Assembly: GCF_006542355.1 (NCBI RefSeq)
Contig: NZ_CP038141.1
Coordinates: forward strand, 1,494,001 to 1,558,000
DNA length: 64,000 bases
Direction of reading: 5' to 3'
Source of the DNA: Swingsia samuiensis
GTDB lineage: Bacteria; Pseudomonadota; Alphaproteobacteria; Acetobacterales; Acetobacteraceae
Shown here: in pieces, positions 17,721 to 55,450 of the stretch
Position numbering within the stretch: position 1 is the first letter of the stretch
Layout: every line of letters begins with the position of its first letter
The notes under the pieces: generated by a model
The model's database searches: none
The model's input: the letters and a program-made list of their open reading frames with translations, nothing else
Told to the model about the DNA's origin: nothing
Program-made: the position numbers and the translations under genes

Positions 17721-17839
17721 GTTCGTCAAAACCGATCAAATGTGGAATATAAATAATAAAATTCAATAGATCAAAAAACGTAGGTCTTTACCACCTTTTT
17801 TGAAAAAGGGTCTATCTAAGGTTTATTTTTAATTGAAAT

Positions 17840-17854
17840 TGCAAATCATTCTCA
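17840..17854 (+). promoter_or_regulatory. Probable Fur box
   Basis: TGCAAATCATTCTCA matches the palindromic Fur core TGATAATnATTATCA at most positions. It lies 40 bp before the start chosen for the next gene, in an AT-rich gap after moaE, so iron repression of the downstream pair is likely. The match is by eye. Confidence 0.55.
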
Positions 17855-17893
17855 ATTAATATGTCTTCAGAGATATTGATTCGGAGATATATT

Positions 17894-18454
17894 ATGCCAC
17901 GGACGCCATTATTCTTATCCGATTTGTGCTGCTGTGAGCGTTTAGCTCTTTGGAGTGTAAGGTGCCTTATCAATCGTTATCGTCTGCCTTTTTGTGCTGA
18001 GACAAGAACAACTGATGGCATGTATCCTATGTCCTTTCGCTCTGTTCTGGATGCAGCCGAGCGGTCTTTTTCTTATGCGGAGGCTTATTTAAAAGAAAAT
18101 GGACAGATCAAATTAAATGTTAATCCTCCCGGGGCTCAAAACTTAACAGAAGTAGAAGAGCGATTTATTCAAGTTATACAGATTGTTCAAAATCAAGGCT
18201 ACCAAGAAGCATTTGCTGTTTTGGACGGAATATATCCAGATCATACTTTGCAGGGGTATTTGGTTGCCGCTCTGGCTTTAGTCGCAGATTGTATGTCAGG
18301 AATTGGTCATTGGTTACCGCTACCAGAACGTAAGTCAACCGGGGCAGGCGCATTGTCTTCTCTTGTAAGGTGGAGGGACACACGGCCAGAAGATGTACGC
18401 GTTCTATGGCCGAGAGAAAGTTCATTAAAGGCAGACGCGCAGGTAATGCACTAA
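17894..18454 (+). CDS. Unknown protein, probably iron-regulated
   Basis: A 186-residue protein I do not recognise. The ATG at 17894 is preferred over 17861 because GGAG at 17883-17886 sits 7 nt upstream. The N-terminus has three adjacent cysteines (DLCCCERLALW); the rest looks alpha-helical (DAAERSFSYAEAYLKENG..., EERFIQVIQIVQNQGYQEAFAVLDGIYPDHTLQGYLVAALALV). No signal peptide or clear membrane helix is visible. The Fur box upstream and the one-base overlap with a tiny membrane protein gene suggest a two-gene iron-responsive unit. Confidence 0.65.
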   Translation: MPRTPLFLSDLCCCERLALWSVRCLINRYRLPFCAETRTTDGMYPMSFRSVLDAAERSFSYAEAYLKENGQIKLNVNPPGAQNLTEVEERFIQVIQIVQNQGYQEAFAVLDGIYPDHTLQGYLVAALALVADCMSGIGHWLPLPERKSTGAGALSSLVRWRDTRPEDVRVLWPRESSLKADAQVMH

Positions 18455-18624
18455 TGACTAACAAATCTACTTTAATATTCACGGATCGTAGCTTGGAAAT
18501 AGTGCTTATGGCTTTGTTGGTTCTAAGCGGTGCAGTTTTGAGCACATTCTGGATTATGTGTATGGTCCCAGAAATTGGGCTGTATGATATTGTTAACTAT
18601 CTTTTATATGATAGCTTTCAGTAA
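18454..18624 (+). CDS. Small single-pass membrane protein (56 aa)
   Basis: ATG at 18454 shares its first base with the TAA of the previous gene (TAATG), so translation is coupled. The product has a short polar N-terminus, one hydrophobic helix of about 25 residues (IVLMALLVLSGAVLSTFWIM) and a polar tail. An in-frame longer start upstream lies inside the previous gene and is unlikely. Function unknown; it probably partners the 186-residue protein. Confidence 0.6.
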   Translation: MTNKSTLIFTDRSLEIVLMALLVLSGAVLSTFWIMCMVPEIGLYDIVNYLLYDSFQ

Positions 18625-51952: not shown

Positions 51953-53110
51953 TTACCCTTGATGATCTAATCGGCTTATATACAAACGCCTGCATCTTTT
52001 TCGATACCATATCCATATACCTGTTATGGAAAGTATAATTGTTATTATACCAGTAAACGCATCTAACGCCTTTCCAAAAGAGCCAATAATTTGGCCCGTA
52101 TGTAATGGATAAAGACTTCGTATTAATTCTGTCCCGCTTCCATCCAGTTCTGGAGAATCAATCCATATGATCTCTCCTGTATAACGGTTCATAAAACACG
52201 TTCTACGTCCCGTTCCAACAAAGTTAGATGTTCCTCCTGAGGCAAAAGACACACCATAGACACCGGCTTCCGAGAAGTCTTGAAATGCAACAGGAGCGAA
52301 CTGCGGATTATAGGATCTTGCCCACTTTCGAGCTATTTTTAGAGCGGCTTCATAGTCAATTGCTTGTTTGTTTTGAGAAAATATTTTCTGAGAAAAAGGT
52401 CCCCCTAAACGTGGAGGGGAAAGCATCTCTACTTCTGGCGCAAAAAACTCAGTGAAGAAATTCATAGCGACAGATGTCGATGATAAAATAAGCATCGCTA
52501 TAAAAGTCCACAAACCCAAAAGACGATGAAGCTCGATCATCGGGCGTTGTTGTAAACTTCTGCGTTTAATCAGCCATAATTTAAACCATTTAGACCAATA
52601 TTTAGGTGGGAATGTAATTATCATTCCCGCAAGCGTAAGAACGAGCCATACAAAAGCTGCGCCTCCCATAAGCCATCGCCCTATACGCCCGCCCCCTAAA
52701 GTATAGTGTACGATATGAATGCCTTGCATGAGATTGTGACGTTGGAAGCCGCCTTGAGTAGAACGTATCCCATGTATTTCTTCATTATATGGATCCCAAA
52801 AAACCTCTCTTTCTCCTTGGCTTGTCTGCACAATAGACCGCACATTTCTATTAGGGGCTGTATTAAGAGAAAATGATTTTATGATCCATGCGGGATGTCG
52901 TTGATGAATTTTCGTTATTTGCTTTGTAATAGGTGGTTTATTAAAATTTGAGGGATGATTACTAGAAATAAAAAGGTCTGGGTTAATGAGTTCATCTATA
53001 TTTGATCTATAGGCTAAAATAGTACCTGTTAAACCTGCAAAGATTAAAAACGGCGCAACGATTAACCCTAGATAACGATGAATTATATAAAAAAAATGCC
53101 GAGCTGACAT
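51953..53110 (-). CDS. PepSY-domain inner-membrane protein (iron-uptake associated)
   Basis: A 385-residue protein with four transmembrane helices. The first is in FFYIIHRYLGLIVAPFLIFAGLTGTILAYR, typical of the PepSY-TM family, and the last in ITIILSITGIWIWYRKR. PepSY-TM proteins near siderophore receptors are thought to act in ferric-siderophore reduction or handling in the inner membrane; this is family knowledge. It is divergent from the TonB receptor with a shared Fur box. Confidence 0.85.
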   Translation of the reverse strand: MSARHFFYIIHRYLGLIVAPFLIFAGLTGTILAYRSNIDELINPDLFISSNHPSNFNKPPITKQITKIHQRHPAWIIKSFSLNTAPNRNVRSIVQTSQGEREVFWDPYNEEIHGIRSTQGGFQRHNLMQGIHIVHYTLGGGRIGRWLMGGAAFVWLVLTLAGMIITFPPKYWSKWFKLWLIKRRSLQQRPMIELHRLLGLWTFIAMLILSSTSVAMNFFTEFFAPEVEMLSPPRLGGPFSQKIFSQNKQAIDYEAALKIARKWARSYNPQFAPVAFQDFSEAGVYGVSFASGGTSNFVGTGRRTCFMNRYTGEIIWIDSPELDGSGTELIRSLYPLHTGQIIGSFGKALDAFTGIITIILSITGIWIWYRKRCRRLYISRLDHQG

Positions 53111-53161
53111 AAAGAAACAATCACCCTGAGCAGCAAAATTTTGATGAAAATCAATTTTTAT

Positions 53162-53176
53162 TGATAATAATTATCA
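53162..53176. promoter_or_regulatory. Fur box between PepSY and TonB-receptor genes
   Basis: TGATAATAATTATCA is a perfect 15-bp palindrome matching the Fur core TGATAATnATTATCA at every defined position. It lies in the 117-bp divergent gap, so both genes are probably iron-repressed. Confidence 0.85.
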
Positions 53177-53227
53177 TTTGCAGTAATGGCAAGAATAACC
53201 TTATCGCATTAGTCATAATGAGAATTT

Positions 53228-55450
53228 ATGCCATATAACCTCTCTTTCGCACGTATCGCGCCTTGTGCATTTAGTGTTGCTTGCTTAGCCTTTTCTTTTA
53301 AAGATGCTTACGCTCAAAATGCCCCCCTAAAGCATCCCTACAAAAAACAAATTATCACCCATAAAGGCAAAGAAATACCTCAGTCATTACAGGCGATAAC
53401 TTCTGAAAACATTCTTGTGCGTGCCCGCCGACGCGAACAAATGGAAGTCAAAAGTGGTGGTCAACTGGGTACGTTAGGGAATGTTAAAGGATTAGACGCC
53501 CCTTTTAATATAAGGTCATATACATCATCCATTATTCTTAATCAGCAATCTCAGACTTTGGGAGATGTTTTAGAGAATGACCCATCAATTCGTACCACAT
53601 TTGGATATGGTAATTTTTCCCAACAATTCTTAATGCGAGGTTTTCCAGTTTATGGTGATGATGTTTCCATCAATGGTCTTTATGGAATTGCACCAAGGCA
53701 GCTTTTATCACCTCAAATTTTGGACCAAGTTCAAGTCTTAAACGGAGCAAGTGCCTTCGTGAATGGAGCTGCTCCAGGAGGGACAGCGATTGGTGGTAAT
53801 ATCAATCTCCTTTTAAAGCATGCGACTAAAGATCCGATTACACGTCTTACCGGAGATTATACGAGCACTGGACAAGGTGGAGGCGCTATTGATTTAGGGC
53901 GCCGGTTTGGAACCGACCATGCTTTTGGTGCACGGTTAAACGTTGCTGGTTTATCAGGAAAAACACCAATTGATCATGAACATCGTGATTCAACGGCTCT
54001 TGGTGCAGATTTTGACTGGCATAATGACCGTACCCGTATCTCCTTAGATATAGACTATCAAAAAGAAGGTGTTCGTTGGGGGCGTGCGGGTGTCTTTTTA
54101 AACAGTGCCTTAACCAGCCTGCCTAAGGTTCCTTCTGCAAAAAGTAATTATGGGCAGCCATGGACCTTTACAGATTTACAGTATCTTTTTGGCATGCTGA
54201 ATGTTGAGCATGATTTAAATCGCCATATTACATTGTATGGTGCTTTTGGTGGAATTGGCAGTAATGAGAAAGGAAATTATTCCAATCTCACTGTAAATAA
54301 TGGAGAAACAGGAGCGGGAACTTACGGAAACCTTTACGTTCCATATGTCAACACGAACGAAAGTACACGCGCAGGTGTTCGCATTCGGTTTAATACGTTT
54401 GGTGTTCATCATACCATAAATACAAGTGGATCGGGGTTATGGGCCACGACTGCCACAGCCTACGCATTCGGGAGTGGCCCCATTGCCGGGAACCTATACT
54501 CGCCAGTTTATACGTCAACGACCCCCAGTCAAAATATTGTCGGTGGAAACTTATCTAACCCTCAAAGAACTGCTTTTACACGTTTGTGGAGCATCGCTTT
54601 TGCAGACACAATTTCAGCCTTTAATAATAGAGTATTGTTGACGGGAGGTTTCCGATACCAAAATATTGTATCAAACAACTATTCTTACGCCACGACACTT
54701 CGCTTGTCTCATATCAACCAAGATGCCGTCACCCCTGTGCTTGGCGTTGTAATTCACCCGACACGTAAAACTTCAATTTATTTCAATCGTGTCGAGGGGT
54801 TGTCACAAGGACCAACGGCTTCAGGAAGTGTTGTTAATATAGGGCAGGTTTTTCCACCTTATCGTTCATTACAGTATGAACTCGGGACGAAATATGAGAC
54901 AGGTCGTTTTTCAGCCTCGATCGCAATCTATCAGGTTAACCAAAATTATTCTTATGTTGCACCGTATGGTAATGGGCAACAAATTTTTACAGTCAACGGC
55001 CTTCAGCGTAATCGCGGTTTAGAAGCTAACATCAATGGTACTGTTGTTAAAGGACTGAGGTTTAATGGCGGAGCGACAATCAATGATGCTAAAATCAGAC
55101 ATTCTGCTCAAAATATATTAGATCATAAAACAGCGATTGGTGTTCCTGATTATATGATTAATGGAAACATTGAGTATGACTTTCCTTATTTACGTGGGAT
55201 GACCCTAACTGCGCGTGTAATTAACACTGGAAAGCAATGGGTGAATACAATGAATACTCTAAAAATCCCCAACTGGACAACATTTGGCATTGGAGCGCGC
55301 TATACATTCATAACGTATCACAAACCATTAACATTACGGTTTGGCATTGATAATATCGGAAACCATCGCTACTGGTCTTCTGCTCTTGGGGGATATCTTG
55401 CTCAAGGAATGCCCCGTACATACAAAGCATCTTTTACTATGGATTTCTGA
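53228..55450 (+). CDS. TonB-dependent siderophore receptor
   Basis: A 740-residue outer-membrane receptor. A signal peptide (about residues 1-29, ending AYA) is followed by the plug domain: PFNIRSYTSSIILNQQSQTLGDVLENDPSIRTTFGYGNFSQQFLMRGFPV and LDQVQVLNGASAFVNGAAPGGTAIGGNINL. A long 22-strand-type barrel ends in aromatic F (TYKASFTMDF). The plug sequence is of the FhuA/FpvA-like ferric-siderophore group. The substrate is unknown. A Fur box lies 52 bp upstream. Confidence 0.92.
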   Translation: MPYNLSFARIAPCAFSVACLAFSFKDAYAQNAPLKHPYKKQIITHKGKEIPQSLQAITSENILVRARRREQMEVKSGGQLGTLGNVKGLDAPFNIRSYTSSIILNQQSQTLGDVLENDPSIRTTFGYGNFSQQFLMRGFPVYGDDVSINGLYGIAPRQLLSPQILDQVQVLNGASAFVNGAAPGGTAIGGNINLLLKHATKDPITRLTGDYTSTGQGGGAIDLGRRFGTDHAFGARLNVAGLSGKTPIDHEHRDSTALGADFDWHNDRTRISLDIDYQKEGVRWGRAGVFLNSALTSLPKVPSAKSNYGQPWTFTDLQYLFGMLNVEHDLNRHITLYGAFGGIGSNEKGNYSNLTVNNGETGAGTYGNLYVPYVNTNESTRAGVRIRFNTFGVHHTINTSGSGLWATTATAYAFGSGPIAGNLYSPVYTSTTPSQNIVGGNLSNPQRTAFTRLWSIAFADTISAFNNRVLLTGGFRYQNIVSNNYSYATTLRLSHINQDAVTPVLGVVIHPTRKTSIYFNRVEGLSQGPTASGSVVNIGQVFPPYRSLQYELGTKYETGRFSASIAIYQVNQNYSYVAPYGNGQQIFTVNGLQRNRGLEANINGTVVKGLRFNGGATINDAKIRHSAQNILDHKTAIGVPDYMINGNIEYDFPYLRGMTLTARVINTGKQWVNTMNTLKIPNWTTFGIGARYTFITYHKPLTLRFGIDNIGNHRYWSSALGGYLAQGMPRTYKASFTMDF

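Follow-up and report, generated by a model that had tools for sequence, protein, structure and literature searches.

A widespread alphaproteobacterial protein family preceded by Fur-box-like operators and repeatedly encoded beside iron-storage genes

What might two coupled genes of no recognised family be doing behind a probable Fur box? The question is raised by a locus within a 64-kb stretch of DNA, the whole of which was analysed and is called the window here. The stretch appears to belong to the Gluconobacter group and comes from a genome of 2.19 Mb in two contigs. Gene X (17894-18454, plus strand; ORF calling and sequence) starts with ATG, is preceded by GGAG at 17883-17886 (by inspection) and encodes a helical protein of 186 aa with a cysteine triplet (CCC) at residues 12-14. 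Its stop codon overlaps the ATG of gene Y (18454-18624, plus strand; ORF calling and sequence) as TAATG, and Y encodes 56 aa with a single membrane segment, as judged by inspection. A moeA-moaA-moaC-mobA-moaD-moaE-like run lies upstream of X, and a PLP-type decarboxylase-like gene is convergent with X-Y (all these names by inspection). The protein search revealed a single copy of X in this genome. No Pfam or NCBIfam model matched X or Y at E ≤ 10. The preliminary description, which had placed a probable Fur box ahead of a coupled pair of unrecognised genes, one for a helical 186-residue protein with CCC near its N-terminus and one for a 56-residue single-pass protein, is borne out in these points, the helical character of X by the predicted structure discussed below.

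The Fur-box-like operator occupies positions 17831-17857 (plus strand). Its 19-bp core (17835-17853) matches the E. coli Fur consensus at 14 of 19 positions, with P ≤ 0.05 against 200 dinucleotide shuffles of the 150 bp upstream. A 27-bp matrix was built from 18 distinct sites upstream of X, all from outside Gluconobacter and each with at least 13/19 matches to the same consensus; at 17831-17857 it scored 24.6 bits, which is the second-best locus of the window. The top matrix locus (53153-53185) is a strong Fur-box-like palindrome between the divergent genes for a PepSY-like membrane protein (51956-53110, minus strand; named by inspection) and a TonB-dependent receptor (53228-55447, plus strand; Pfam), the latter of which it precedes. 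In the same genome the 19-mer at 17840-17858 has one exact match, at its own position, and its best near-match (two mismatches) is located directly before feoA-feoB. Among the sites with three mismatches, one precedes a TonB receptor gene and three others do not precede recognised iron genes. The bfd gene of this genome carries a matrix site of 20.1 bits, so that feoAB, two TonB receptors and bfd are all marked by the matrix or the 19-mer. A consensus scan also distinguished a promoter-like TTGAAA-18-TAATAT (17833-17862, plus strand) spanning the Fur box; this match is weak alone, because the region holds six such sites against a shuffle mean of 3.5, only mildly above expectation.

The preliminary description had made its iron-responsive reading depend on conservation of the box in relatives, and the box is conserved. 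With the E. coli consensus, 61 of the 76 regions upstream of X, drawn from six genera, reached P ≤ 0.05, including all those of Gluconobacter (22/22), Komagataeibacter (14/14) and Novacetimonas (4/4), as well as 18/30 from Acetobacter, 3/5 from Gluconacetobacter and 0/1 from Acidomonas. The 15 misses are Acidomonas, G. diazotrophicus, G. tumulisoli and 12 Acetobacter loci; in Acidomonas, bfd lies upstream of X on the same strand and is preceded by a weaker matrix site (15.8 bits). The matrix was applied to 200 bp upstream of members of four chosen sets and compared with 60 dinucleotide shuffles (P ≤ 0.05; smallest possible P, 0.016). It was significant in 53 of 57 members: 8/8 held-out members of the Gluconobacter group (eight of that group's loci), 16 of 17 distant members of the order (L045, L099, L104 and L111-L113 being among those left out), 16 of the 18 taken from other families in the class (all 19 class loci apart from the window, less L133, which contains stops) and 13 of 14 DUF6628 genes (14 of 18 places; L254-L257, partial or weak, were left out). 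The loci missed were L100, L126, L137 and L247. As a control, 150 upstream regions belonging to called ORFs of 250 aa or more in loci of this kind were scored, and 9 were positive; in L146 and L101 the positive site is the operator of X, reached through an overlapping or spurious ORF, and the one in L150 precedes an FbpA-like gene. The operator is thus present and conserved by computation. To the extent that DNA sequence can reveal regulation, conservation of the box strongly supports the link to Fur, and Fur control of X may be regarded as well supported, probably in the form of repression.

The other half of the original proposal, that the pair is the system, has to be changed. Of the 25 genomes in the window's genus, 19 have Y at the X locus, and Y is absent at every X locus searched in other genera, the search covering the DNA around X. 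X and Y as a conserved unit were therefore rejected, Y being limited to the Gluconobacter group wherever an X locus was tested; X by itself is the functional unit. Y may be a later, Gluconobacter-specific and translationally coupled addition, perhaps serving X as a lineage-specific membrane partner or anchor. The CCC motif has a similar distribution (21/22 Gluconobacter X sequences, 0/54 elsewhere). Since it is confined to Gluconobacter among X sequences, a metal site common to the whole family is unlikely to lie here, and that reading was rejected.

X itself is widely distributed, its protein family extending over many families of Alphaproteobacteria. Of 41 relatives covered by the protein search, 25 have X: every one of the 25 genomes in the genus, the window's own among them, and none of the 16 from other families. 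In the family sample X was detected in 28 of 249 genomes. With profile A1, X was recovered from 128 of the 299 genomes sampled in the order, representing 24 of 65 genera; with profile A2 (E ≤ 0.01), relatives turned up in 49 of 190 class genomes, again counting the window's own, and six of the 49 matched only at E 0.003-0.01. A phylum-wide scan matched 21 of 299 genomes, all of the same class, in a sample whose share outside the class is unstated. Carriage of X on plasmids and in viral contigs was rejected (no PLSDB match, and no viral contig confirmed, respectively). Profile comparison gave 98.8% (E 1.3e-16 for a single pair) between the window-type and class-wide alignments; they are clearly homologous, and the family is one. 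Residues E15, R23, E88, L92, Q99 and G138 (window numbering) are kept in at least 90% of 40 A2 rows. L225, titled Gluconacetobacter entanii, was placed under Novacetimonas in the counts, as the family search groups the genera. Two X-family genes stand in tandem in L103, L106, L119 and L159; a Gluconacetobacter genome (G082, L058:8910-10686) likewise carries two tandem X paralogues and has a third copy beside bfr elsewhere. A literature search, mostly without full text, found no description of the family.

The nearest named family is DUF6628 (PF20333), which we take to be a Sphingomonadaceae-type family of unknown function; no paper on it was found in the literature searched. X falls below its gathering cut-off (27 bits), with no match even at E 10, and those distant X relatives that match PF20333 at all do so at 15 and 21.6 bits, under the cut-off. 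Alignment of profiles with hhalign gave 64% for the window-type sequences alone, 95.7% for A2 and 96.7% for the class-wide set, the remote homology spanning about 125 residues, and one of the class members is matched by A2 (E 2.1e-15) as well as by PF20333 (E 4.6e-4, below the cut-off). By these comparisons X is a relative of DUF6628 and not a member. The two are alike in size and in the Fur-like box, found upstream of 13/14 DUF6628 genes, but differ in that the DUF6628 consensus has an APCCCPRMT motif (CCC in 6 of 14 rows) and lacks the long C-terminal tail. The DUF6628 loci (L241-L253 and L114) have a conserved Fur-like box, and several adjoin an MFS-transporter-like gene (by inspection). 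The window-type, the class-wide type and DUF6628 probably constitute one remotely related alphaproteobacterial superfamily. This large family would join members previously unconnected, and DUF6628 would gain a regulatory and evolutionary context.

AlphaFold2, run on alignment A4 (window and 39 relatives), predicted X with a mean pLDDT of 82.7 and a pTM of 0.74. The model has helices at residues 13-27, 46-68, 86-99, 103-111 and 117-136, followed from about 147 by a low-confidence tail. Foldseek found nothing in PDB at E ≤ 0.001, its weak matches being a ferritin-like deformylating oxygenase (E 0.14) and Dps (from E 0.61). The best VIA-align matches were ribosomal proteins (Z 5.2), followed mostly by nuclear receptors (Z about 4-5, rmsd above 4), which was read as helical background, and the absence of ferritin-like folds among the VIA-align matches listed carries no weight either way. 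Sequence searches of solved structures gave no match for A4 and one chance-like match (E 0.38) for A6. The predicted core of X is thus confidently helical, with no clear relative. Inspection of X showed no signal peptide or membrane segment.

In the class-wide set, a cysteine just before a conserved D-E pair was seen by eye in 17 of 18 rows and a C-x2-C in 8 of 18; scripted counts were 15 and 6, an earlier D-E having been taken in two rows. The last residue is histidine in 13 of 18 class-wide rows. Control ORFs no shorter than 250 aa gave 4 of 130, and an earlier background that admitted family members and ORFs down to 150 aa gave 17 of 203. Among window-type sequences the terminal histidine occurs in 37 of 76, namely Gluconobacter 22/22, Acetobacter 13/30, Gluconacetobacter 2/5 and others 0/19. 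In the A6 members (L121-L139), a hydrophobic-His C-terminus is met repeatedly behind a linker that does not align, much as a short docking motif would be.

In the order, 111 of the 128 X genomes had a bfr position among the matches listed. Among these, X lies within 5 kb of bfr in 31, convergently in 30, in four genera: Gluconacetobacter (10/12), Komagataeibacter (12/15), Acetobacter (8/35) and Acidomonas (1/1); the counts, again for matches listed, were 0/23 for Gluconobacter, 0/4 for Novacetimonas, 0/1 for g95 and 0/20 for others. A bfr gene is present in 124 of 128 X-positive genomes (four had no bfr match) versus 87 of 171 X-negative ones (Fisher P ~1e-20, ignoring phylogeny); this co-occurrence is confounded by phylogeny, and membership of one regulon could by itself bring the genes together. 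An iron-related marker lies within 3 kb of X in 20 of 75 named loci, from Gluconacetobacter (5/5), Komagataeibacter (14/14) and Acidomonas (1/1), and in none of those from Acetobacter (0/30), Gluconobacter (0/21) and Novacetimonas (0/4). A fur-family gene adjoins X in 14/14 Komagataeibacter and 3/5 Gluconacetobacter named loci. In Acidomonas and G118, bfd is directly upstream of X on the same strand, and in Acidomonas the order is bfd-X facing bfr. The genome of the window has a convergent bfd-bfr pair on contig 1 near 855 kb (L118:7173-8001), with no X in that stretch; its bfd has a Fur-like site.

A match occurs in 48 other genomes of the class, and neighbours were examined in 19 of these, mostly the best-scoring ones. 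In three, from other families, X stands beside bfr and/or bfd: bfd-bfr-X on one strand in G450 (bfd by tblastn only), bfr-bfr-X on one strand in G557 (tblastn only), and two tandem X-family genes followed by bfd, facing bfr-bfr, in G025; the remaining 16 have neither. None of the tested markers was found near X in 14 of the 19. FbpA-like solute-binding proteins, presumably specific for iron, are encoded within 3 kb of X in G485 and G538, and one adjoins X in G234 of the order. Some of the neighbour identities were confirmed with Pfam. The statement that the locus is unlinked to transport genes holds for the window's genome and fails elsewhere: a tandem X-family pair lies between fecR and a TonB receptor gene in G380 (L103:5935-12654), another follows exbB-exbD-tonB in G139 (L106:5225-8972), feoB is about 1.9 kb upstream of X in L101, and solute-binding proteins are encoded near X in L100, L146 and L150. 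In G380 a TonB-like gene also occurs on the opposite strand, with ExbB/ExbD matches further along. In other lineages, then, X adjoins or lies near bfr, bfd or a fur-family gene besides uptake genes. The linkage is an observed one. Passages on iron regulation in a G. diazotrophicus study (PMC9368920) report that the bacterioferritin/bfd gene GDI_3449 was changed by iron, that Bfd was expressed more without iron and that a Fur box was predicted for 112 genes or operons; they make no mention of X.

The family is mostly Fur-boxed and repeatedly found beside iron-store genes, and it is therefore probably part of the response to iron shortage. We tentatively favour the view, held at somewhat less than even confidence, that X is a Fur-repressed iron-starvation protein and most likely a partner of the bacterioferritin/Bfd store. 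Fe-Fur would repress X through an operator lying inside its promoter; when iron runs short, Fe-Fur would leave the operator, and X would be made and accumulate, presumably in the cytosol. There it might act with Bfr and Bfd, for example by docking on either and promoting or gating iron release. This action on the store is suggested because linkage to bfr and bfd recurs. The helical core would be the docking body, and the disordered tail, often His-ended, may be a short docking motif or, more speculatively, handle metal. Regulation of X is well supported by sequence; its molecular role, its cytosolic location and especially its contact with Bfr or Bfd are our inferences. Iron release from bacterioferritin has been worked out mainly for the Bfr-Bfd pair, in Pseudomonas and E. 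coli. It is possible, though we consider it rather unlikely, that the whole Fur-controlled superfamily is a third component of this release beside Bfr and Bfd, built from a helical body and a C-terminal docking peptide. Against the partner reading, X is not within 5 kb of bfr in 27 of 35 Acetobacter genomes (matches listed), and its uptake-gene neighbours (fecR/TonB receptor, exbBD-tonB, feoB) fit a general role in iron starvation.

Such a role could be that of an iron-sparing effector which lowers iron use elsewhere, e.g. as an RNA or protein adaptor, as the FbpA/FbpB/FbpC proteins of Bacillus are thought to do; the bfr neighbourhood would then reflect clustering of the regulon. This is the less probable account, though one to be taken seriously, for Fur control is the most constant feature of the family and its neighbours vary, ranging over bfr/bfd, fur-family genes, feoB, exbBD-tonB, fecR/TonB receptor, solute-binding proteins and nothing recognised, and the named loci of Gluconobacter (21), Acetobacter (30) and Novacetimonas (4) have no iron marker within 3 kb of X. 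However, X again has bfr/bfd as neighbours in three other families of the class, on one strand in two of them, a pattern more specific than would be expected if just any Fur targets had clustered.

It seems improbable that X binds iron, haem or a metal cluster and serves as a chaperone between store, uptake and client proteins. The cysteine before D-E (17/18 class-wide rows, with C-x2-C in 8), the excess of terminal histidines over the control ORFs, CCC in 6 of 14 DUF6628 rows and the retention of Cys133 in 39/40 and Cys13 in 32/40 window-type rows are in its favour, but no cysteine is conserved throughout the superfamily, the window CCC is peculiar to Gluconobacter, and Cys13 is lost in some Komagataeibacter and Acetobacter. 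Least of all do we expect X to be an accessory of TonB/ABC uptake machinery or signalling. The tandem pairs beside fecR/TonB receptor and exbB-exbD-tonB, the feoB upstream of X and the nearby solute-binding proteins would suit such a function, but X has by inspection no signal peptide or membrane segment, and no uptake marker lies within 3 kb in the 75 named loci.

Three other known systems offer comparison. FbpA, FbpB and FbpC of Bacillus subtilis are small Fur-repressed cytosolic proteins of iron starvation that act with a Fur-repressed small RNA; they belong to a different phylum, and X is likened to them from their general description. Bacterioferritin and ferritin-like proteins (PF00210) share with X an all-helical structure and an iron-linked locus, but X has no PF00210 match and its Foldseek hits begin at E 0.14 and worsen. 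Bfd (PF04324) is small, has a Fur-like site in this genome and lies beside bfr; X, by contrast, is more than twice as long, helical and without a PF04324 match, a model that the Bfd of the same genome matches at 6.1e-8. A widespread Fur-controlled family near bfd-bfr, without name, structure or function, would be a new component amenable to testing in alphaproteobacteria, among them the acetic acid bacteria used in industry. In Bfd a Fur-controlled accessory of iron storage is already known; what X would add is a different family in that place, or another role in iron starvation.
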